Shown: piece by piece, positions 34,258-43,038 of the stretch | Layout of the letters: every line of letters begins with the position of its first letter | Position numbering within the stretch: position 1 is the first letter of the stretch | From: Neoroseomonas lacus | GTDB taxonomy: Bacteria; Pseudomonadota; Alphaproteobacteria; Acetobacterales; Acetobacteraceae | Assembly: GCF_014644535.1 (NCBI RefSeq) | Contig: NZ_BMKW01000001.1 | Span: forward strand, 434,001 to 498,000 | Length of the DNA stretch: 64,000 bases | Reading direction: 5' to 3' | Program-made: the position numbers and the translations under genes | Notes under the pieces: generated by a model | What the model was told of the DNA's origin: nothing | What the model saw: the letters and a program-made list of their open reading frames with translations, nothing else | Database searches by the model: none

Positions 34258-34857
34258 ATGTCGCAGAAGCGGCGCCGACCCGAGCCCGGTGGGCTTGCCG
34301 GCCGCCGCGGCCCGGCGCAGGTTGCGCGCGTGATCAATCTGCTCCGCCGCAATGCCAGCCTGATGGTGATCGCCACCATCGGAGCCGCCGCCGCGGCCGG
34401 CCTGTGGCAACGCGATGGCGGCGCCGCTGTCGGCCATGCGCTCTATCATGCGTGGGAGCTGTTCCTGTTCATCGTGCCCTCGCTGCTGGCCGGGCTGTTG
34501 CTCGCCGCGGCGCTGCGGCAATTGATGTCACCCGGCGCGCTGGGGCGCTGGATGGGGGCGGAAAGCGGCTGGTTCGGCCTGTTGGTCGCGACGGTCGCCG
34601 GCGGGCTGACACCCGGCGGGCCGATGGCGGCCTTCCCGCTGGTGCTGGTGCTCGGCGGCGCGGGGGCCGACCGTGGCGCGCTGATCGCCTATATCCTGGG
34701 CTGGTCGCTGAACGGTTTCCAGAAGCTGCTGGTCTATGAAGTGCCGCTGCTGGGGCCGGAATTCGCCATCATGCGCACGCTGATCACCCTGCCAATGCCA
34801 ATGCTGGCGGGCTGGCTCGCGCGCAAGCTGCCGATCGTGTGGGAGCCGCCCAAGTGA
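34258..34857 (+). CDS. Half-size ArsP_1/DUF318 permease, subunit A
   Basis: A 199-residue membrane protein with about four to five membrane segments and the motif VAGGLTPGGPMAAFPLVLVLGG in the family of permeases related to ArsP_1/DUF318. That family normally has two such repeats in one polypeptide. The start is uncertain because the N-terminal 30 residues are arginine-rich; GTG at 34330 is an alternative. It overlaps the second half-gene by 4 bases (GTGA). Substrate unknown. Confidence 0.75.
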   Translation: MSQKRRRPEPGGLAGRRGPAQVARVINLLRRNASLMVIATIGAAAAAGLWQRDGGAAVGHALYHAWELFLFIVPSLLAGLLLAAALRQLMSPGALGRWMGAESGWFGLLVATVAGGLTPGGPMAAFPLVLVLGGAGADRGALIAYILGWSLNGFQKLLVYEVPLLGPEFAIMRTLITLPMPMLAGWLARKLPIVWEPPK

Positions 34858-35369
34858 CGCCGGGGCAAATGTTCCTGTGGCTGGTGGCGCTGGTCGCGCT
34901 GGGCTTCTGCCTGCGGCGCGGGCCGGGCATGCTGCGCCGGGTCGGCACCGAGACCGGGCAGAGCCTGGTCAAGATCCTGCCGCTGTTCGCCGTCGCGCTG
35001 CCGATGGCGGCCTTCCTCGCCGAGCTGATGCCGGCCGATGCGGCAGTCACCTGGATCGGGCCGGAGTCGGGGCCGCTGGGGGTGGTGATCGCCTCGGTCG
35101 CCGGCGGCTTCATGCCGGGCGGGCCCTTCGTCACCTTCCCGCTGGTGCTGGCCTTTGCCAAGGCCGGCGCGGGCGTGCCGCAGATGGTCGCGCTGATCAC
35201 CGGCTGGTCGATCTTCGCGGTGCACCGGATCATCAGCTGGGAATATCCGCTGCTGGGCTGGCGCTTCGTGGTGCTGCGGCTGGTCTCGGCCCTGCCGCTG
35301 CCGATCCTGGCCGGGCTGCTGGCCGAGCTGGTTGTCGAATTCCTGCCGATGACCATCGGCACCCCCTGA
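34854..35369 (+). CDS. Half-size ArsP_1/DUF318 permease, subunit B
   Basis: A 171-residue membrane protein with about five segments and the paired motif VAGGFMPGGPFVTFPLVLAFAKAG, equivalent to the VAGGLTPGGP motif of the preceding protein. GTG at 34854 overlaps the upstream stop (GTGA) and has GGGAG before it; ATG at 34869 is an alternative. Together the two proteins would make one full permease, probably as a heterodimer. Confidence 0.75.
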   Translation: MTPGQMFLWLVALVALGFCLRRGPGMLRRVGTETGQSLVKILPLFAVALPMAAFLAELMPADAAVTWIGPESGPLGVVIASVAGGFMPGGPFVTFPLVLAFAKAGAGVPQMVALITGWSIFAVHRIISWEYPLLGWRFVVLRLVSALPLPILAGLLAELVVEFLPMTIGTP

Positions 35370-35503: not shown

Positions 35504-36280
35504 ATGGACAGCCCCCCCGAGGACCCCGACTGGGCCGCGCTGCTGGCCGCCCGCGATGGCGGGCCGGCGACCGGAGCGCTGGCGCCCCTGTTCGCGCCGC
35601 TGCTCGCACCCGCCCTCGCAGCCGATGGCTGCCGCGTGGTCGGGCGGCTGGCGCAGACGCTGGATGGACGAATCGCCACCGCCTCCGGCTCCAGCCAGTG
35701 GATCGGCGGGCCAGGCGACATCCTGCACACCCATCGCCTGCGCGCGCTGTGCCACGCGGTGGTGGTGGGTGCGGGCACGGTGCGCCATGACGACCCGCGG
35801 CTGACGACGCGCGAGGTGCGCGGCCCCGACCCGGTGCGCGTGGTGATCGACACCGACCGTCGGCTGTCGGCGAACTATGGCGTGTTCCGCCATGGCCCGC
35901 CGACGCTGTTGGTCTGCGCGGATGATGCCCCGGGTGGCGACCGCCACGGCACCGCCGATGTGCTGCGGATCCCGCGCACGCCGACCGGCGGTATCGCGCC
36001 GCCTGCGCTGCTGCGCGCCCTCGCCGCGCGGGGGCTGACGCGCATATTCGTCGAGGGTGGCGGGCTGACCGTCTCGCGCTTCCTCGCCGCCGGCTGCCTC
36101 GACCGGCTGCATGTAACGATCGCGCCGGTGCTGCTCGGTTCGGGCATCCCGGCCTTCACCCTGCCGGAGGTGCCGCGCATCGCTGACGGGCTGCGCTTCA
36201 CCTGGCAGGTGTATCCGATCCCGCCGGACATATTGCTCGACATCCCGGTGGATCGGGCACGGCCGGGAGGTCTCGCATGA
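35504..36280 (+). CDS. RibD C-terminal (dihydrofolate-reductase-like) reductase
   Basis: A 258-residue protein of the RibD_C/bacterial DHFR-like family: AQTLDGRIATASGSSQWIGG, HRLRALCHAVVVGAGTVRHDDPRLTTR, PVRVVIDT and LTRIFVEGGGLTVSRFL. The cytidine-deaminase half of riboflavin RibD is absent, so this is a stand-alone NAD(P)H reductase, probably of a pyrimidine or pterin. It overlaps the next gene by 4 bases and opens the cluster to the methyltransferase. It is not the only possible riboflavin enzyme of the cell, so a specialised role is likely. Confidence 0.85.
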   Translation: MDSPPEDPDWAALLAARDGGPATGALAPLFAPLLAPALAADGCRVVGRLAQTLDGRIATASGSSQWIGGPGDILHTHRLRALCHAVVVGAGTVRHDDPRLTTREVRGPDPVRVVIDTDRRLSANYGVFRHGPPTLLVCADDAPGGDRHGTADVLRIPRTPTGGIAPPALLRALAARGLTRIFVEGGGLTVSRFLAAGCLDRLHVTIAPVLLGSGIPAFTLPEVPRIADGLRFTWQVYPIPPDILLDIPVDRARPGGLA

Positions 36281-37254
36281 TGGCGCGCGCGCTCTGGACC
36301 GTCGCTGAGGGGCGCTGCGAGATCCGCGAGGAGACGCTGCCGTCGCGCGCGCCCGACCATGCGCTGATACGCACGCTAGTGAGCGGCATCTCGCGCGGCA
36401 CGGAGCGGCTGGTGCTGACGGGCCGCGTGCCGGAAAGCCAGTACGCGGCGATGCGCTGCCCCTTCCAGGCCGGCGATTTCCCCTTCCCGGTGAAGTACGG
36501 CTACAGCGCCGTCGGTGTCGTCGAGGACGGGCCGGCGGCGCTTCTCGGCCGCCGCGTCTTCTGCCTGCACCCGCATCAGGACCGCTTCCTCGCCCCGGCC
36601 GGCATGTGCATCCCGGTGCCGGACAACGTGCCCGACGCCCGCGCCGTGCTCGCCGCCAACATGGAAACCGCGGTGAACATCCTGTGGGATGCCCGGCCGC
36701 TGGCGGGCGAGCGCGCGCTGGTGATCGGCGCCGGGGTGGTCGGGCTGCTGGTCGCCGCCCTACTCGCGCGCATGCCGGGGATGGAGGTGGTGGTCTGCGA
36801 CCTCGACCCGCTTCGCCGTGCCATGGTGGAGGCGCTCGGCGCGACCTTCGCCTCGCCGGAGGACGCCCCCGCCGAGCGCGACCTGATCATCCATGCCAGC
36901 GCCGATCCGGCCGGGCTGCGCCGCGCGCTGGAACTCTGCGCCTTCGAGGCGCGCATCATCGAAGCATCATGGTACGGCACCCGGGAAGCCACGCTGCCGC
37001 TCGGCGAGGCCTTCCATGCCAAGCGGCTGCAGATCGTCTCGACCCAGGTCGGCGCGGTGGCGCCGGCGATGCGCGGGCGGCGCAGCCATGCCGAGCGCAT
37101 GGCGCTGGCGCTGTCCCTGCTGGCCGACCCGCGCTTCGACGCGCTGCTGGCACCGGCCACGCCCTTCGCCGGGCTGGCCGCGGCGATGCCGGGGCTGCTC
37201 AATCCGCCGCCTGGCGCGGCGACACCGCTTTGCCCGGTCGTCGCCTATGGCTGA
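36277..37254 (+). CDS. MDR-family dehydrogenase without canonical zinc ligands
   Basis: A 325-residue medium-chain dehydrogenase/reductase. The N-terminal catalytic domain has GISRGTERLV in place of the usual Cys-containing zinc motif and KYGYSAVGVVE. The nucleotide-binding domain has VIGAGVVGLLVAALL (about residues 149-163) and a following acidic strand (VVVCDLDP), suggesting NAD(H). The motif pattern resembles the BchC-like subgroup but is clearly different. Start ATG overlaps the RibD-like stop. It presumably oxidises or reduces a hydroxyl or carbonyl on the cluster product. Confidence 0.8.
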   Translation: MMARALWTVAEGRCEIREETLPSRAPDHALIRTLVSGISRGTERLVLTGRVPESQYAAMRCPFQAGDFPFPVKYGYSAVGVVEDGPAALLGRRVFCLHPHQDRFLAPAGMCIPVPDNVPDARAVLAANMETAVNILWDARPLAGERALVIGAGVVGLLVAALLARMPGMEVVVCDLDPLRRAMVEALGATFASPEDAPAERDLIIHASADPAGLRRALELCAFEARIIEASWYGTREATLPLGEAFHAKRLQIVSTQVGAVAPAMRGRRSHAERMALALSLLADPRFDALLAPATPFAGLAAAMPGLLNPPPGAATPLCPVVAYG

Positions 37255-37387
37255 CCTCACGCAAATCTGAGCGGATTCACTCATCCTTCCACTGCGGTCC
37301 AGCAAACTTCCGCGGTCGGCTGGCGTTGTTTGCGCGGAGCGATGCGCGATGCGTGGCCTGCCCGTCTCCGACCAGGAAGGACAGCCT

Positions 37388-37549
37388 ATGACCGACCCGA
37401 AATCCGCCATGTCACCCGACGTCGTCGACGAGACGACGGCAGTCCGCCAGGGCCAGACACTCGGCTCGATGCGGTGGGTGCTGCTGGTCTCGCTCATTGC
37501 CGTGGTGACATCCTTCATCGTCGCCTTCGCTGTCATGCCGATGCCATGA
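37388..37549 (+). CDS. Small single-pass membrane protein
   Basis: A 53-residue protein with a hydrophilic N-terminus and one C-terminal membrane helix (MRWVLLVSLIAVVTSFIVAFAV). ATG at 37388 follows AAGGA at good spacing. It interrupts the biosynthetic run, with 133 bases before and 46 after. A longer in-frame start at 37349 is possible but less likely. Role unknown. Confidence 0.55.
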   Translation: MTDPKSAMSPDVVDETTAVRQGQTLGSMRWVLLVSLIAVVTSFIVAFAVMPMP

Positions 37550-37595
37550 ATCGGCGCCGCGTGACGGGAGGCTGAGGCACCGCTAAACAGGCTGC

Positions 37596-38000
37596 ATGTT
37601 CAGCCTGACCGTCGTCGACCACGTCATGATCGCCCATTCCTTCCGCGGGGAGGAATTCGGGCCAGCCCAGCGCCTGCACGGCGCCACCATGGTGGTGGAG
37701 GCCGAGTTTCGCGCGCCGAAACTCGACCGCCTGAACCTGCTGGTGGACATCGCCGCTGCCAAGGTGGAGCTGCGACGCATCCTGGACGGGTTCGACTACC
37801 GCAACCTCGATGCCGAACCGCAATTCGCCGGGCAGAACACCACCACCGAGTATCTCTGCGCGCATATCCACAGGCTGCTCTCGGCGGCGCTCGCCGAAGG
37901 CCGGCTCGGGGATGGCGGGCGCGCGGTGACGGGGCTGAAGATCCTGCTGAAGGAAAGCCACATCGCCTGGGCGGCCTATGAAGGAGCACCGGCGGCGTGA
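37596..38000 (+). CDS. PTPS/QueD-like protein with divergent active site
   Basis: A 134-residue T-fold protein of the 6-pyruvoyltetrahydropterin synthase family, with IAHSFRGEEFG, AQRLHGATMVVEAEF, NTTTEYL and LKESHIAWAAYEG. Compared with E. coli QueD, the catalytic Cys before RLH is Ala, the third zinc His (HGH) is Ala (HGA), and the DH catalytic His is Tyr (FDYRNLD); the glutamate in KES is kept. A normal PTPS/QueD reaction is therefore doubtful, and another pterin or pyrimidine substrate is likely. Its stop overlaps the GTG of the glycosyltransferase. Confidence 0.82.
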   Translation: MFSLTVVDHVMIAHSFRGEEFGPAQRLHGATMVVEAEFRAPKLDRLNLLVDIAAAKVELRRILDGFDYRNLDAEPQFAGQNTTTEYLCAHIHRLLSAALAEGRLGDGGRAVTGLKILLKESHIAWAAYEGAPAA

Positions 38001-39043
38001 GCCTGCATCTATTGGTGCCGGGGCCGTTCGACGCCATCTCGGGCGGCTATATATATGACCGGCGCATGGTCGAGGGCCTGCGCGCCCTGGGCGAGAGCGT
38101 CGAGGTGGTGGAACTGCCCGGCAGCCACCCCGCCCCGGACGAGGCCTCGACCGAGGGAGCGCGGGCCGCGTTGCGTGCCCTGCCGGCCGATGCGCGGATC
38201 GTCATCGACGGGCTCGGCCTGCCGGCCTTCCTGCCGCTGACGCAGGAACTCGCCGAACGCCGCGCGGTCGCGCTGATCCATCACCCGACGGCGCTCGAAC
38301 ATGGCGCGTCCGAGGCGGCGCGCACCGTGCTCAAGGCCCGCGAACGCGCGCTGTTCGGCGCCATGGCGCGGATCGTCTGCACCTCCCCGCTCACGGCGCG
38401 GCGCCTGCCTGAGGAATTCGGCGCCAATCCCGACCGCATCGGCGTGGTCGAGCCCGGCACCGACGAAGCCACGCGTGCGGCGGGGTCGGGCGGGCCGGGC
38501 TGCGCCATCCTCTCGGTCGGCACGCTGGTGCCGCGCAAGGGGCATGACGTGCTGCTGCGCGCCCTGGCCCGGCTCACCGACCTCGAATGGAGCCTGACCA
38601 TCGTCGGCGACAGCCGGCGCGACATCGTCCATGCCGATGGGCTGAAGGCGTTGGCCGAGGAACTCGGTATCGCCAACCGTGTGACCTTCGCGGGTGAACT
38701 GACGGGCACGGCGCTGGAGGCGCTGTATCACCGCGCGGACCTCTTCGCCCTAGCCACGCGATGGGAAGGCTATGGCATGGTCGCCGCAGAAGCGATGGCG
38801 CGCGGCCTGCCGCTGGCCATCACCGCCGGCGGCGCGATCGCCGAGGTGGTGGTGCCGGGCTCGGCCATCGTCTCGCCGGTCGATGACGTGGTGTCGCTGT
38901 CCAAGGGCATGCGCCGGGCAATCTTCGACGCCGACCTGCGCGCCGAGATGGCCGAGGCGGCCTGGTCCGGCGGCCAGGCCCTGCCGCGCTGGCCCGACCG
39001 CGCCACGGCGTTCCGTGCCGAGATCGAGAAGGCCTACGCCTGA
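37997..39043 (+). CDS. Family 4-type glycosyltransferase
   Basis: A 348-residue GT-B glycosyltransferase. The C-terminal domain has VGTLVPRKGHDVLLRAL, LTIVGDSRRD and the donor-binding E257-x7-E265 in EGYGMVAAEAMARG. GTG at 37997 overlaps the PTPS-like stop (GTGA), and the end overlaps the methyltransferase start by one base, so the three genes are tightly coupled. It probably glycosylates the product or intermediate of this cluster. Confidence 0.9.
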   Translation: MSLHLLVPGPFDAISGGYIYDRRMVEGLRALGESVEVVELPGSHPAPDEASTEGARAALRALPADARIVIDGLGLPAFLPLTQELAERRAVALIHHPTALEHGASEAARTVLKARERALFGAMARIVCTSPLTARRLPEEFGANPDRIGVVEPGTDEATRAAGSGGPGCAILSVGTLVPRKGHDVLLRALARLTDLEWSLTIVGDSRRDIVHADGLKALAEELGIANRVTFAGELTGTALEALYHRADLFALATRWEGYGMVAAEAMARGLPLAITAGGAIAEVVVPGSAIVSPVDDVVSLSKGMRRAIFDADLRAEMAEAAWSGGQALPRWPDRATAFRAEIEKAYA

Positions 39044-39915
39044 TGTCGGAAGGCTTCGACGGCGATTGGCTCGACCTGCGCGAACCCTATGACGCCGCGG
39101 CGCGCGACATCGACCTCGCCTTCCGGCTCGCCGAGGCCTTGCCGGCGCGGCCGCGGCTGCTCGACCTCGGTTCGGGCACCGGCAGCCTGATCCGCTGGCT
39201 CGCCCATTTCATCGACCGCGCCCAGGCCTGGACGATGGTCGATGCCGACGCCGAGCTGATGTCGCGCGCCTTTGACACCATCGCCGAACGGGCCGAGGCG
39301 GTGGGCGTGGCGGCCACCTTCCCGGGGAAGAAGACGCTGCTGGTGCATGCGCCCGGCGGCGCTTGGCGGATCGAGGGGCTGCTCGCCGACCTCGCCGAGG
39401 CGCCGGAGATGCTGCCGCTCGACAAGGCCGACGCGGTGGTCAGCACGGCGTTGTGCGACCTGGTCTCGGCGGCCTGGGTGGAGCGCATGGCCGCCGCCTG
39501 CGCCGCGCGCCGCCTGCCCTTCTATGCCGCGCTGAACGTGACGGGGCGCGAGCGCTTCTGGCCGCCGCATCGCGCCGATGCGCTGGTGGCGCGTGGCTTC
39601 CGGCGCGACCAGCGGCGCGACAAGGGCTTCGGTGGCGTGGCGCTGGGCCCGGCCGCGCCTTCCGTGATGGCGGCGGCCTTCGCGGCACATGGCTATACCG
39701 TGCTGCGCGCGCCGTCCGATTGGATCATCGACCGCCGCGCGCGCTTCTTCACCCAGGAGATCGCGACCGGCCACGGCACGGCGGCGCTGGCCTGGGAACG
39801 GCGCGGCGCGGCCGCCATCGAGGACTGGATCGCCACGCGACGCGCCCAGGCAGCCGATGGGCTGCTCTCGGTGCGCATCGGCCATCAGGATCTGCTCGCC
39901 TTGCCCCCTGGCTGA
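39043..39915 (+). CDS. Class I SAM-dependent methyltransferase
   Basis: A 290-residue Rossmann-fold methyltransferase. The SAM-binding motif I is LLDLGSGTGSLIRWL (about 39-53), with TMVDADAEL as the acidic motif II. The substrate cannot be read from sequence. ATG at 39043 lies in TGATG overlap with the glycosyltransferase, which argues for methylation of the same metabolite. The cupin gene follows 13 bases later. Confidence 0.88.
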   Translation: MSEGFDGDWLDLREPYDAAARDIDLAFRLAEALPARPRLLDLGSGTGSLIRWLAHFIDRAQAWTMVDADAELMSRAFDTIAERAEAVGVAATFPGKKTLLVHAPGGAWRIEGLLADLAEAPEMLPLDKADAVVSTALCDLVSAAWVERMAAACAARRLPFYAALNVTGRERFWPPHRADALVARGFRRDQRRDKGFGGVALGPAAPSVMAAAFAAHGYTVLRAPSDWIIDRRARFFTQEIATGHGTAALAWERRGAAAIEDWIATRRAQAADGLLSVRIGHQDLLALPPG

Positions 39916-39928
39916 GAGGACGCCGTCC

Positions 39929-40411
39929 ATGAGCGACAAGCCCCCCATCGCCGTCACCGCCGCCGAAGTGCCGCCGCGCGCGCGGCCGTCGAACTATCCG
40001 GCCGATTTGGTCGACAAGATCGGCGGGCGGCAGAAAACGATCCTCGGCGACCTGTTCGGGCTGAAGAATTTCGGCGTGAACCTCACGCGCCTGCCGCCGG
40101 GTTCCGCCTCGGCGCTGCGCCATGCGCATGAGAAGCAGGACGAGTTCGTCTACATCGTCGAGGGCGCCTGCACCCTGGTCACCGATGCCGGCGAGACGCC
40201 CATGCAGGCCGGCATGTGCGCCGGCTTCCGCGCCGGCACCGGGGATGCGCACCACCTGGTCAATCGCGGCACGGCCGATTGCGTCTATCTCGAAATCGGC
40301 GACCGCACGCCCTTCGAGAAGGTCGACTACCCCGACGATGACCTGATGGTCCGGCCCGGACCGGACGGCAAGAGCGTCTATTTCCGCAAGGACGGCACGC
40401 CCGTTTTCTGA
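39929..40411 (+). CDS. Cupin domain protein
   Basis: A 160-residue single-domain cupin. The first motif is RHAHEKQDEFVYIVEG and the second GDAHHLVNRG, with three His and one Glu positions usable for metal. The C-terminal tail (VRPGPDGKSVYFRKDGTP) is typical of a conserved cupin subgroup. Linked by short gaps to the methyltransferase and the OtnK-like kinase, it could be a sugar-phosphate isomerase/epimerase or a product-processing enzyme. Confidence 0.85.
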   Translation: MSDKPPIAVTAAEVPPRARPSNYPADLVDKIGGRQKTILGDLFGLKNFGVNLTRLPPGSASALRHAHEKQDEFVYIVEGACTLVTDAGETPMQAGMCAGFRAGTGDAHHLVNRGTADCVYLEIGDRTPFEKVDYPDDDLMVRPGPDGKSVYFRKDGTPVF

Positions 40412-40423
40412 AGGAGGGCGACA

Positions 40424-41683
40424 ATGCCCCTGCTGCTCGGCTGCATTGCCGATGATTTCACCGGCGCGACCGACCTCGCCAATACGCTGGTCAAGGGCGG
40501 CATGTCGGCCGTGCAGGTGATCGGCGTGCCCGATGGGCCGTTGCCCGAGGCCGATGCCGTCATCATCGCGCTCAAGACGCGCACCGCGCCGGTCGCCGAT
40601 GCGGTGGCGCAGTCCCTAGCCGCCTGCGACGCGCTGACCAAGGCCGGCGCGAAGCAGTTGTTCTGGAAATACTGCTCGACCTTCGACAGCACGGACCAGG
40701 GCAATATCGGCCCGGTCGGCGATGCGCTGCTGAAGCGCCTCGGCTCGGGCTTCGCCATCGCTTGCCCGGCCTTCCCGACCAATGGGCGGACGATCTATCT
40801 CGGCCACCTGTTCGTCGGCGGCGCGCTGCTGAATGAGAGCGGGATGGAGAACCATCCCCTCACCCCGATGACCGACGCCAATCTGGTGCGCGTGCTGTCG
40901 CGCCAGGCCGAGGGCGGCGTCGGGCTCGTGCCCTTCAACACGGTGGAACAGGGTGCTGCGGCGATCCGCCAGGCGATGACGCGCCTGGTCGAGGCCGGCC
41001 GCCGCTGGGCTATCGTCGATGCCGTCACCGACGAGCATCTGATGGCAATTGGCGAGGCGGTGGCCCCGCATGCGCTGGTGACCGGCGGGTCGGGCGTGGC
41101 GATGGGGCTGCCGGAGAACTTCCGCCGCGCCGGGCTGCTGCCGGCGCGACCGGATGCCGATGCGCTGCCACCGATGCAGGGTTTCGCCGCCGTCGTCGCC
41201 GGGTCCTGCTCGCGCGCGACGCTCGGTCAGATCGGCCTTGCCCGCGACCATGTGCCGGTGCTGGAACTGGATGCGCTCGCCACCCCCGATGCGGCGGCGA
41301 TGGCTGCCCAGGCGCTGGCCTGGGTTGATGGCAAGCTGGAGGCATCCCGCCCCGTGGTGATCGCGGCCTCCGCGACGCCGGAGAAGGTGGCGGCCTTGCA
41401 GGCGAAGCTCGGCCGCGATGCCGCCGGCGCGCTGGTGGAGAGCGCGGTCGCAACCATCGCCGCCGGGCTGGTGGAACGCGGTGTCGGCCGGCTGGTGGTG
41501 GCGGGCGGCGAGACCTCGGGCGCGGTGGTGCAACGTCTCGGCGTGACCTCGCTGCGCATCGGGCCGGAGATCGACCCCGGCGTGCCCTGGACCTATGCCA
41601 ACCCGACCGGGCTGCATCTCGCGCTGAAGTCCGGCAATTTCGGCGCACGCGACTTCTTCCTCAAGGCGTTCAGCCATGGATGA
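40424..41683 (+). CDS. otnK: Four-carbon acid sugar kinase (OtnK/DUF1537)
   Basis: A 419-residue DUF1537 protein. The N-terminal substrate domain starts LLGCIADDFTGATDLANTLVKGG, and the C-terminal nucleotide-binding domain has LVVAGGETSGAVVQRLGV and GVPWT-type loop. The family phosphorylates 3-oxo-tetronates (or related four-carbon acids). The following OtnC-like gene overlaps by 8 bases, giving the known kinase-decarboxylase pair that ends in dihydroxyacetone phosphate. AAGGAGGG precedes ATG. Confidence 0.92.
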   Translation: MPLLLGCIADDFTGATDLANTLVKGGMSAVQVIGVPDGPLPEADAVIIALKTRTAPVADAVAQSLAACDALTKAGAKQLFWKYCSTFDSTDQGNIGPVGDALLKRLGSGFAIACPAFPTNGRTIYLGHLFVGGALLNESGMENHPLTPMTDANLVRVLSRQAEGGVGLVPFNTVEQGAAAIRQAMTRLVEAGRRWAIVDAVTDEHLMAIGEAVAPHALVTGGSGVAMGLPENFRRAGLLPARPDADALPPMQGFAAVVAGSCSRATLGQIGLARDHVPVLELDALATPDAAAMAAQALAWVDGKLEASRPVVIAASATPEKVAALQAKLGRDAAGALVESAVATIAAGLVERGVGRLVVAGGETSGAVVQRLGVTSLRIGPEIDPGVPWTYANPTGLHLALKSGNFGARDFFLKAFSHG

Positions 41684-42308
41684 GGCCGCACTCCGCGATC
41701 AACTGGCGATGCTCGGCGCCTCGCTGTTCCAGCGCGGCTATTCGGTCGGCACGGCGGGCAACATCTCCGTGCGCCTGGCCGACGGGTACCTGATGACGCC
41801 GACCAATTCCTGCCTCGGGCGGCTCGACCCGGCGCGGATCAGCAAGCTCGCGCCGGATTGGTCGCATATCGGCGGGGACAAGCCGTCGAAGGAAGTCTTC
41901 ATGCATCGCGCGGTGCTGACAGCGCGGCCGGATGCCGGCGCCGTGGTGCATCTGCACTCGACCTATGCGACCGCCATCGGATGCCTCGCCGAACCCGGCG
42001 AGACGGCGCCGATCCCGCCGCTGACACCGTATTTCGTCATGCGCGTCGGCCGCTCGTTGCCGGTGATCCGCTACTACCGGCCCGGTGACGGCGCGATGGA
42101 AGGCGACATCCACGAGGCGGCGAAGGGCGCGAAGGCGGTGCTGCTCGCCAACCACGGCCCGGTGGTCAGCGGCAGGACACTCGCCGATGCCGTCGCCGCT
42201 GCCGAGGAACTCGAGGAATCGGCCCGCCTCGCGCTGCTGCTGCGCGGCGTGGGCGCGCGCGGCCTGACGCCGGCGCAGGTGGACGACCTGCTGACCACCT
42301 TCGGCTGA
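41676..42308 (+). CDS. otnC: 3-oxo-tetronate 4-phosphate decarboxylase (OtnC, class II aldolase fold)
   Basis: A 210-residue class II aldolase/adducin protein. It has GNISVRL, SKEVFMHRAVL, zinc-type VVHLHSTYATAIG and LLANHGPVVSG. Paired with OtnK it would decarboxylate 3-oxo-tetronate 4-phosphate to dihydroxyacetone phosphate. The stop overlaps the DUF4406 start by one base. Confidence 0.92.
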   Translation: MDEAALRDQLAMLGASLFQRGYSVGTAGNISVRLADGYLMTPTNSCLGRLDPARISKLAPDWSHIGGDKPSKEVFMHRAVLTARPDAGAVVHLHSTYATAIGCLAEPGETAPIPPLTPYFVMRVGRSLPVIRYYRPGDGAMEGDIHEAAKGAKAVLLANHGPVVSGRTLADAVAAAEELEESARLALLLRGVGARGLTPAQVDDLLTTFG

Positions 42309-42646
42309 TGTGGATCATGGTCGCCGGGCCATACACCAGTGGCGATGCCGATGAGGCGACCCGCGCGGTACGCGTGGCCGAGATGAACCGCGCCGCGCTC
42401 GCGCTGTTCCGCCTCGGCCATGTGCCGGTCATCGGCGTGAACATGGCGCTGCCGGTCATCGAAGCGGCCGAGTGCGACGCCTTCGACGAGGTGATGATGC
42501 CGCTCTCCCTCGCGCTGGCCGAGCGCTGCGATGCGGTGCTGCGCATCGGCGGGCCGAGCGCCGGGGCGGATGCCGAGGTGGCGCGGTTCACCGCCGCCGG
42601 CAAGCTGGTGTGCCACACCATCGAGGAAGTTCCGGCATGCCCTTGA
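42308..42646 (+). CDS. DUF4406/nucleoside deoxyribosyltransferase-like protein
   Basis: A 112-residue protein with the N-terminal MWIMVAGPYTSGDADEATRAVR pattern of the nucleoside 2-deoxyribosyltransferase-like fold (DUF4406). The LRIGGPSAGADAEVARF stretch is the nucleotide-binding end. The substrate is unknown. It overlaps both neighbours (1 and 10 bases), so it is made with OtnC and MgsA. Confidence 0.8.
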   Translation: MWIMVAGPYTSGDADEATRAVRVAEMNRAALALFRLGHVPVIGVNMALPVIEAAECDAFDEVMMPLSLALAERCDAVLRIGGPSAGADAEVARFTAAGKLVCHTIEEVPACP

Positions 42647-43038
42647 CCCTCGCCCTGGTCGCGCATGACCGGATGAAGCCCGCGCTCGCCGCCTGGGCCA
42701 CGCGCCACGCGGCGGAACTCGCCCCGCATGCGCTGGTCTGCACGGCGACGACCGGCGGGACGATCCGTGAGCAATGCCCCGACCTGCCGATCCGCCTGGT
42801 GAAGTCCGGCCCGCTCGGCGGCGACCAGCAGATCGGCGGCATGATCGCCGAGGGAGAAATCCACGCGCTGATTTTCTTTCCCGACCCGCTCGCCCCCCAG
42901 GCGCACGACGTCGATGTGAAGGCGCTGCTGCGCATCGCGCTGGTCTATGACATCCCGGCGGCGTTCAGCCCGGCGACGGCGGATCTGCTCGTAGCCGGCG
43001 GGTTGCTGACGCCACCGAAGGCCGCCGGCGGCGATTGA
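42637..43038 (+). CDS. mgsA: Methylglyoxal synthase
   Basis: A 133-residue MgsA, which turns dihydroxyacetone phosphate into methylglyoxal plus phosphate. H10, the phosphate-binding TATTGGTI, catalytic D63 in PLGGDQQIGGMIAEG, and FFPDPLAPQAHDVDVKALLRIA are all conserved. Last gene of the run that includes the DHAP-forming OtnK/OtnC pair. ATG at 42637 overlaps the previous gene by 10 bases. Confidence 0.95.
   Translation: MPLTLALVAHDRMKPALAAWATRHAAELAPHALVCTATTGGTIREQCPDLPIRLVKSGPLGGDQQIGGMIAEGEIHALIFFPDPLAPQAHDVDVKALLRIALVYDIPAAFSPATADLLVAGGLLTPPKAAGGD

Follow-up and report, generated by a model that had tools for sequence, protein, structure and literature searches.

What could be made, and from which precursor, by a compact run of genes in the alphaproteobacterium Neoroseomonas lacus? 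The question arises from a 64,000-nt stretch of its genome (assembly GCF_014644535.1, contig NZ_BMKW01000001.1, positions 434,001 to 498,000), which is hereafter called the window. Positions 35504-39915 of the window encode a RibD_C reductase, a medium-chain dehydrogenase/reductase (MDR), a T-fold protein related to 6-pyruvoyltetrahydropterin synthase (PTPS) and QueD, a family 4 glycosyltransferase (GT4), and a methyltransferase (MT) that uses S-adenosylmethionine (SAM). A sequence-only reading had proposed that these five genes form an undescribed biosynthetic cluster for a glycosylated, methylated pterin or pyrimidine. Our follow-up confirmed that the gene set is real and supported the view that four of its members (MDR-PTPS-GT4-MT) form a conserved unit and not a local accident. 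A pathway from the product of GTP cyclohydrolase II to a glycosylated pyrimidine or pterin appears probable, and the end product would accordingly belong to one of these two classes of compound.

Conservation of the gene run

Loci for comparison were collected in two ways. A class-wide search with the MT covered 289 alphaproteobacterial genomes and was positive in 32, one of them the window's own, and stretches of 16.6-20 kb were taken, mostly by rank, from 20 of the 31 other positive genomes; 20 control stretches of 20 kb were drawn from the same genomes (16) or from other MT-positive genomes (4). In addition, a one-genome-per-species collection was scanned with an alignment of the PTPS, resulting in at least 594 matching stretches, at least 581 of which were confirmed to encode this PTPS type, and the best 80 by identity were retained as named loci. 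We divided these 80 into 42 Acetobacteraceae-type loci (L060-L100 and L116; a grouping of our own, with record titles naming Acetobacteraceae genera, Rhodospirillales or unclassified Proteobacteria) and a third group of 38 others, giving 100 loci together with the 20 found by MT. Presence was counted by tblastn at 1e-6, gene calls within the loci were home-made and may miss short genes, and Pfam was run on chosen representatives of the neighboring genes. The Fisher values reported below take loci as independent and are inflated by related species.

Near the MT in the 20 alphaproteobacterial loci, both PTPS and GT4 were found in 20, MDR in 19 and RibD_C in 17, and none of the five genes was present in any of the 20 control stretches. 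Across the 100 loci, MDR, PTPS, GT4 and MT were all present in 87, and their order and strand were kept in 85 of these 87; the MDR gene is inverted in Lentzea and Saccharopolyspora. As PTPS was the query behind 80 loci and MT behind 20, independent evidence comes from the gene order and from the presence of the other genes. RibD_C was linked in 74 of the 100 loci and GTP cyclohydrolase II in 32. The same gene order had been suggested as something to look for elsewhere, and a lack of co-occurrence as evidence against the proposal; such a lack was not borne out.

The gene set extends beyond alphaproteobacteria. Proteobacteria and Actinomycetota supplied the loci, together with one Acidobacteria bin and one Gemmatimonadales bin. 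Both bins fall into the third group, which also includes Streptomyces, Amycolatopsis, Actinoplanes, Pseudonocardia, Lentzea, Micromonospora, Salinicola and Lamprocystis. Acetobacteraceae, Neoroseomonas for example, provide the nearest named relatives of the cluster. Pairwise distances of MDR, PTPS, GT4 and MT co-vary (Spearman 0.60-0.73 in 88 sets, without an unrelated protein as a yardstick). On a midpoint-rooted MDR tree of 66 rows, whose bootstrap is not fully settled, the 27 Actinomycetota make up one group (100/99) among mostly proteobacterial rows, which would fit a single entry of the cluster into this phylum. One Streptomyces locus served to define a sample of 296 genomes from its phylum, its own included, and PTPS-IV, the subfamily described below, was found in 9 of them.

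The contig that carries the window measures 680 kb, and the genome, about 97% complete, 6.4 Mb. The open reading frame (ORF) list, Pfam and NCBIfam matches, and a fold model of the MT place the five genes on the plus strand in the families first assigned to them (Table 1), and the RibD_C protein, whose sole domain is PF01872, indeed has no deaminase part. Tight coupling of the run held at three of four junctions, with overlaps of 4 bases for RibD_C/MDR, 4 bases for PTPS/GT4 and 1 base for GT4/MT, but MDR and PTPS are separated by 341 bases. For the possible membrane ORF in this gap, L060 and L061 were the only searched loci with convincing tblastn matches (54-71% identity), and a Pfam search gave no match; the ORF is lineage-specific. 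The tight run continues past the MT (39929-43035) with genes for a cupin, OtnK, a class II aldolase, DUF1937 and an MGS-domain protein. The cupin stands outside the widely conserved core and is present in some Acetobacteraceae loci only. Upstream of RibD_C (34258-35369) are two overlapping half-size ArsP_1-type permease genes, and some of the Acetobacteraceae loci have such a pair upstream too. Within the window, no Rfam family (gathering threshold) and no tRNA was found.

Table 1. Genes of the run and of its immediate surroundings, in window coordinates
Feature	Position	Strand	Basis
RibD_C reductase without deaminase domain	35504-36280	+	PF01872, 138.8 bits
MDR dehydrogenase, BchC/polyol-dehydrogenase-like, without the usual zinc-ligand motifs	36277-37254	+	NCBIfam bchC, 53.2 bits
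Possible 53-aa single-span membrane ORF in the MDR-PTPS gap	37388-37549	+	
PTPS-IV T-fold protein (FGPAQ...HGA)	37596-38000	+	PF01242, 72.1 bits
GT4-family glycosyltransferase, GTG start	37997-39043	+	PF00534, 109.4 bits
Class I SAM methyltransferase (MT), distinct subfamily	39043-39915	+	Alignment, AlphaFold model, Foldseek
Cupin-domain protein	39929-40411	+	PF07883, 55 bits
OtnK (3-oxo-tetronate kinase)	40424-41683		Part of the run
Class II aldolase	41676-42308		Part of the run

The core enzymes and the likely entry compound

The T-fold protein of the window carries the signature FGPAQRLHGA, and the pattern FG[PT]A[RQ]..HGA was matched by 99 of 101 sequences (L086 and L097 are off by one residue). 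FGPAQ is given as the signature of PTPS-IV in the section on this subfamily of the AGeNNT paper (PMC5445326), and by this signature the protein of the window belongs to the PTPS-IV subfamily of COG0720. A PTPS-IV profile matches a solved structure, 3d7j (SCO6650), at E 4e-61, and this entry is labelled 'uncharacterized'. The catalytic Cys motif of PTPS and QueD (C-x3-5-HGH) was found in none of the 101 PTPS-IV sequences, where HGA replaces HGH. A (T/S)TE motif is present in all 101 and a Glu of the E-S/T-x type near the C-terminus in 97, and we take both to be parts of the pterin-binding pocket. Thus, PTPS-IV probably keeps the T-fold and a pocket for a 2-amino-4-oxopyrimidine, and, with the catalytic Cys motif gone, it likely runs a reaction other than the usual PTPS/QueD one. 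Calling this protein PTPS/QueD-like was correct as to its fold family (PF01242) but not as to the catalytic motif. Its relatives frequently bear the name 6-pyruvoyl- or 6-carboxytetrahydropterin synthase, despite the absence of that enzyme's catalytic motif in every sequence checked.

The RibD_C reductase scored below the cut-offs of both TIGR00227 (139.5 bits; cut-off 150.15) and TIGR01508 (103 bits; cut-off 186.45). Its best solved relative is 6p8c, a 2,5-diamino-6-ribosylamino-pyrimidinone 5'-phosphate reductase, and its likely substrate is the GTP cyclohydrolase II product, whose ribose it would reduce. The MDR also remained below cut-off for ADH_zinc_N (27.3 bits; cut-off 31.8) and bchC (TIGR01202, 53.2 bits; cut-off 291.25) and resembles sorbitol dehydrogenase (E 1.5e-5). 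Among 97 MDR sequences, the zinc motif C-x-G-S/T-D was found in none and GHE in one. An Asp after the second Rossmann strand is typical of NAD use, and the MDR residue at this place, D175, is invariant (17/17), which suggests an enzyme that is probably NAD-dependent. The GT4 protein matches 27 NCBIfam families, all 25 listed being below cut-off, and the sugar donor is not deducible from them.

For the MT, matches to Methyltransf_25 and Methyltransf_23 were below cut-off and no solved relative was found by sequence at E 0.01. Its AlphaFold model (mean predicted local distance difference test score, pLDDT, of 96) has a confident class I methyltransferase fold, and the Foldseek matches are class I methyltransferases (best 3mgg, template modeling score 0.56/0.63-0.64); this structure did not narrow the methyl acceptor. 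In seven of the 42 Acetobacteraceae-type loci (L081, L085, L087, L092, L096, L099 and L116), no MT was detected between GT4 and otnK, so that methylation seems optional. Of the originally proposed cluster for a glycosylated, methylated pterin or pyrimidine, therefore, the conserved unit stood, with a link to cyclohydrolase II outside Acetobacteraceae, but methylation is not universal.

Linked GTP cyclohydrolase II was found in 6 of 20 alphaproteobacterial loci, 26 of 38 third-group loci and none of the 42 Acetobacteraceae-type loci or the 20 controls. The corresponding numbers for the creatininase family (PF02633) were 3, 21, none and one. At the place of an active-site Tyr of the E. coli enzyme (presumably Tyr 105), the core-linked cyclohydrolases have Met (10), His (5), Gln (1) or Tyr (16, including L059 and L102, which were missed by the motif pattern and read by eye). 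A creatininase is linked to all 16 Met/His/Gln forms versus 5 of the 16 Tyr forms (Fisher 6.8e-5, not kinship-corrected), a test that rests on few genera: Met occurs in Streptomyces and two Amycolatopsis, His in Lentzea, Pseudonocardia, Actinomadura and two Amycolatopsis, Gln in Saccharopolyspora, and Tyr in Actinoplanes, Micromonospora, Salinicola, the Acidobacteria bin and alphaproteobacteria. Work by Spoonamore and colleagues in 2006 reportedly found that SCO6655 of Streptomyces coelicolor forms a formylated intermediate. BrbF, an enzyme of the creatininase family, deformylates the formylated cyclohydrolase intermediate (PMC9478397). A BrbF-like role of the neighbors considered here is predicted from PF02633 family membership; the Salinicola creatininase reaches 19 of the 180 bits required by the NCBIfam ArfB model. 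Since two routes to the same deformylated pyrimidine would exist within one kind of cluster, this pyrimidine, the deformylated cyclohydrolase II product, is likely the entry compound.

We also examined where this compound could come from in the window's own genome, in which two cyclohydrolase II domains were found, one in an enzyme on another contig (C13) and one in RibBA of the rib operon. Only the C13 enzyme has intact metal-site and EGRG motifs; in RibBA (L038, 6221-7357), the cyclohydrolase II half is without the cysteines and the EGRG motif. The C13 enzyme, although unlinked to the cluster, thus probably serves both riboflavin synthesis and the cluster pathway. It adjoins a YkuD gene, and L040, L052 and L054 likewise have a closely spaced pair of cyclohydrolase and YkuD genes next to the core. 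Four creatininase-family genes were found in this genome, all on other contigs.

The proposed pathway and its alternatives

A full mechanism, which we put forward as a tentative proposal, would convert the cyclohydrolase II product into a glycosylated, methylated pterin-type compound by way of RibD_C, MDR, PTPS-IV, GT4 and MT. GTP cyclohydrolase II would supply 2,5-diamino-6-ribosylamino-4(3H)-pyrimidinone 5'-phosphate; a cyclohydrolase with Met, His or Gln would go no further than the formylated intermediate, from which the neighboring creatininase-family enzyme would remove the formyl group. RibD_C would then reduce C1' of the ribose, and the zinc-less, probably NAD-dependent MDR would oxidize the ribityl chain at C2', from hydroxyl to ketone. 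PTPS-IV would hold the 2-amino-4-oxopyrimidine while the 5-amino group closes onto C2', giving a dihydropterin (dihydroneopterin phosphate), to which GT4 would add a sugar and the MT, where present, a methyl group. Reduction at C1' plus oxidation at C2' would arrive at the carbon skeleton that GTP cyclohydrolase I produces by its internal Amadori rearrangement. Such a mechanism would account for an apparently opposed reductase and dehydrogenase travelling together; L096 and L099 are without both.

Several observations weigh against this proposal. The ring-closure step is drawn purely from chemical reasoning. The Acetobacteraceae-type loci, to which the window belongs, are those without linked cyclohydrolase II or creatininase, although some of them are cut by contig ends. 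Within alphaproteobacteria, creatininase (3/20 versus 1/20) is not enriched over control, and a Tyr cyclohydrolase lies beside a creatininase in Salinicola, L059 and L102. RibD_C was not found in 20 of the 38 third-group loci, so this step may be unlinked or not universal; ten genomes of loci without linked RibD_C have 2-23 RibD_C-family genes each. L096 and L099 contain PTPS, GT4 and otnK, with no MDR, RibD_C or MT detected in the stretch. Finally, cyclohydrolases of the C13 type occur in 116 of the 289 alphaproteobacterial genomes, namely in 24 of 32 with an MT match and in 92 of 257 without one (Fisher 3e-5, not kinship-corrected). The type is therefore not diagnostic of the pathway, and this wide spread, together with the C13 enzyme being the sole intact copy in its genome, weakens the idea of a dedicated cluster gene.

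The same cyclohydrolase II start might also lead to a product whose second ring is never closed, that is, a glycosylated, methylated ribitylamino-pyrimidine or a lumazine- or flavin-like compound. RibD_C, by family and by its best solved match, is a reductase of the riboflavin branch, and the absence of the PTPS/QueD catalytic motif from all 101 PTPS-IV sequences points in the same direction. However, T-fold PTPS relatives are more commonly core partners in pterin or deazapurine chemistry, and lumazine synthase was not among the neighbor families annotated (part of the neighbors). We consider an unclosed ring rather unlikely.

Membrane-type neighbors raise the question of whether the GTP-derived glycoside becomes a lipid head group, which a CDP-alcohol phosphotransferase (CDP-OH_P) would join to a phospholipid and a flippase would move outward, Acetobacteraceae keeping a soluble version. 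CDP-OH_P was found in 34 and the LPG_synthase_TM flippase in 31 of the 38 third-group loci, which are non-alphaproteobacterial or otherwise ungrouped. Moreover, CDP-OH_P is present in 7 of the 20 alphaproteobacterial loci, and neither family occurs in the 20 controls. Further neighbors in the 20 alphaproteobacterial loci include a membrane GT2 (7), cytochrome b561 (5), YceI (5) and YkuD (4; not significant against control, p 0.053), and the first three of these favor a lipid. Yet neither CDP-OH_P nor the flippase was found in the 42 Acetobacteraceae-type loci, the flippase was not found in the 20 alphaproteobacterial ones, and the window's genome yielded three CDP-OH_P genes with weak resemblance to the cluster type. 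On balance, a lipid head group is an unlikely destination. In L043, L045 and L049, the cytochrome b561 gene lies inside the cluster, between RibD_C and MT, and there is a hint that this cytochrome is a membrane redox partner in some alphaproteobacteria.

Pterin formation and lipid anchoring may also be combined, although we regard the combination as doubtful. The cluster would then represent a second natural pterin route without GTP cyclohydrolase I, in which RibD_C reduction and MDR oxidation would stand in for the Amadori rearrangement, with ring closure by a T-fold protein devoid of PTPS catalytic groups. Anchoring of the glycosylated product to a phospholipid, followed by flipping, would yield a membrane pterin redox lipid in Actinomycetota and Salinicola.

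Roles in known pathways are much less probable. A riboflavin role of the cluster RibD_C was rejected, since the protein has no fused deaminase and is not the sole RibD: a full-length RibD is encoded in the rib operon, near RibBA. Service of the PTPS in queuosine synthesis as QueD, with the rest of the cluster incidental, is very improbable. It is the only PTPS found in a genome that has queA, tgt, queF, queG and queC, but it lacks the QueD motif, as do all PTPS-IV sequences checked, and QueE (TIGR04508, one model) was not found in this nearly complete genome by a search that was positive in E. coli and B. subtilis. Also speaking against this role are a further PTPS-family gene in 11 of the 28 MT-positive alphaproteobacterial genomes searched, out of 31 besides the window's own, and a Vut_1 transporter gene following queC; we assume that Vut_1 is the family of the preQ0 transporter YhhQ. 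All these queuosine genes, with the transporter next to queC, lie on the window's contig (L168, 5652-11114); canonical QueD was not found in this genome. Thus, the possibility raised in the sequence-only reading that the enzymes act in known riboflavin or queuosine pathways was not borne out. Catabolism of sugar acids with otnK/otnC, only resembling a pterin pathway, is equally improbable: otnK lies downstream in 35 of the 42 Acetobacteraceae-type loci but was not found in the 38 third-group or 20 alphaproteobacterial loci, where the core persists.

Comparison with known systems

The tie of PTPS-IV to cyclohydrolase II (PF00925) and RibD_C (PF01872) is already in print. AGeNNT (PMC5445326) lists both as neighbors of PTPS-IV, with the FGPAQ signature, for a cluster-node of 561 sequences; of this neighborhood, the window has RibD_C linked and cyclohydrolase II not. 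The PTPS-IV section of that paper mentions no glycosyltransferase, dehydrogenase, methyltransferase or creatininase, proposes no pathway and calls PF00925 'FolE2'. A literature search that left out most subscription journals and the AGeNNT supplement revealed no account of the full cluster or of its product, in agreement with the earlier statement that no characterized pathway with exactly this set was known.

In S. coelicolor, the numbers SCO6650-SCO6655 fit the order PTPS, GT4, MT, flippase, creatininase and cyclohydrolase II read in several other Streptomyces loci, and this gene order gives a hint that SCO6652 may be the MT. In two expression studies, SCO6652 reaches log2 4.3 at 48 h and 4.1 at 72 h, in the later mycelium (PMC3610822), and SCO6655 is in a list of genes mostly up in stationary phase (PMC2853524). 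If the proposed pathway is true, the purpose of the extra GTP cyclohydrolase II in S. coelicolor would be explained, and a cofactor-like or membrane molecule common to very different bacteria, antibiotic producers included, would have gone unseen. The pathway's product would thus be worth seeking as a new small molecule or cofactor.

With the front end of riboflavin synthesis (GTP cyclohydrolase II, BrbF/ArfB and RibD), the cluster shares enzyme families and probably the first intermediates. It differs in that RibD_C has no deaminase, that PTPS-IV, GT4, MDR and MT are added, and that DHBP synthase and lumazine synthase are not among the annotated neighbors. BchC, the bacteriochlorophyllide dehydrogenase, is the best-scoring curated family for the MDR and is likewise without zinc-type motifs, but the score (53 bits) is far below the cut-off of 291. 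Pterins of the cyanopterin and Chlorobium type derive from GTP cyclohydrolase I and canonical PTPS, neither of which was seen in the unit described here. The likeness to these pterin glycosides lies in the decoration: in cyanopterin and with the Chlorobium pteridine glycosyltransferase (PMC5683033), a glycosyltransferase decorates a reduced pterin, which is the role that GT4 would have in the proposed pathway.

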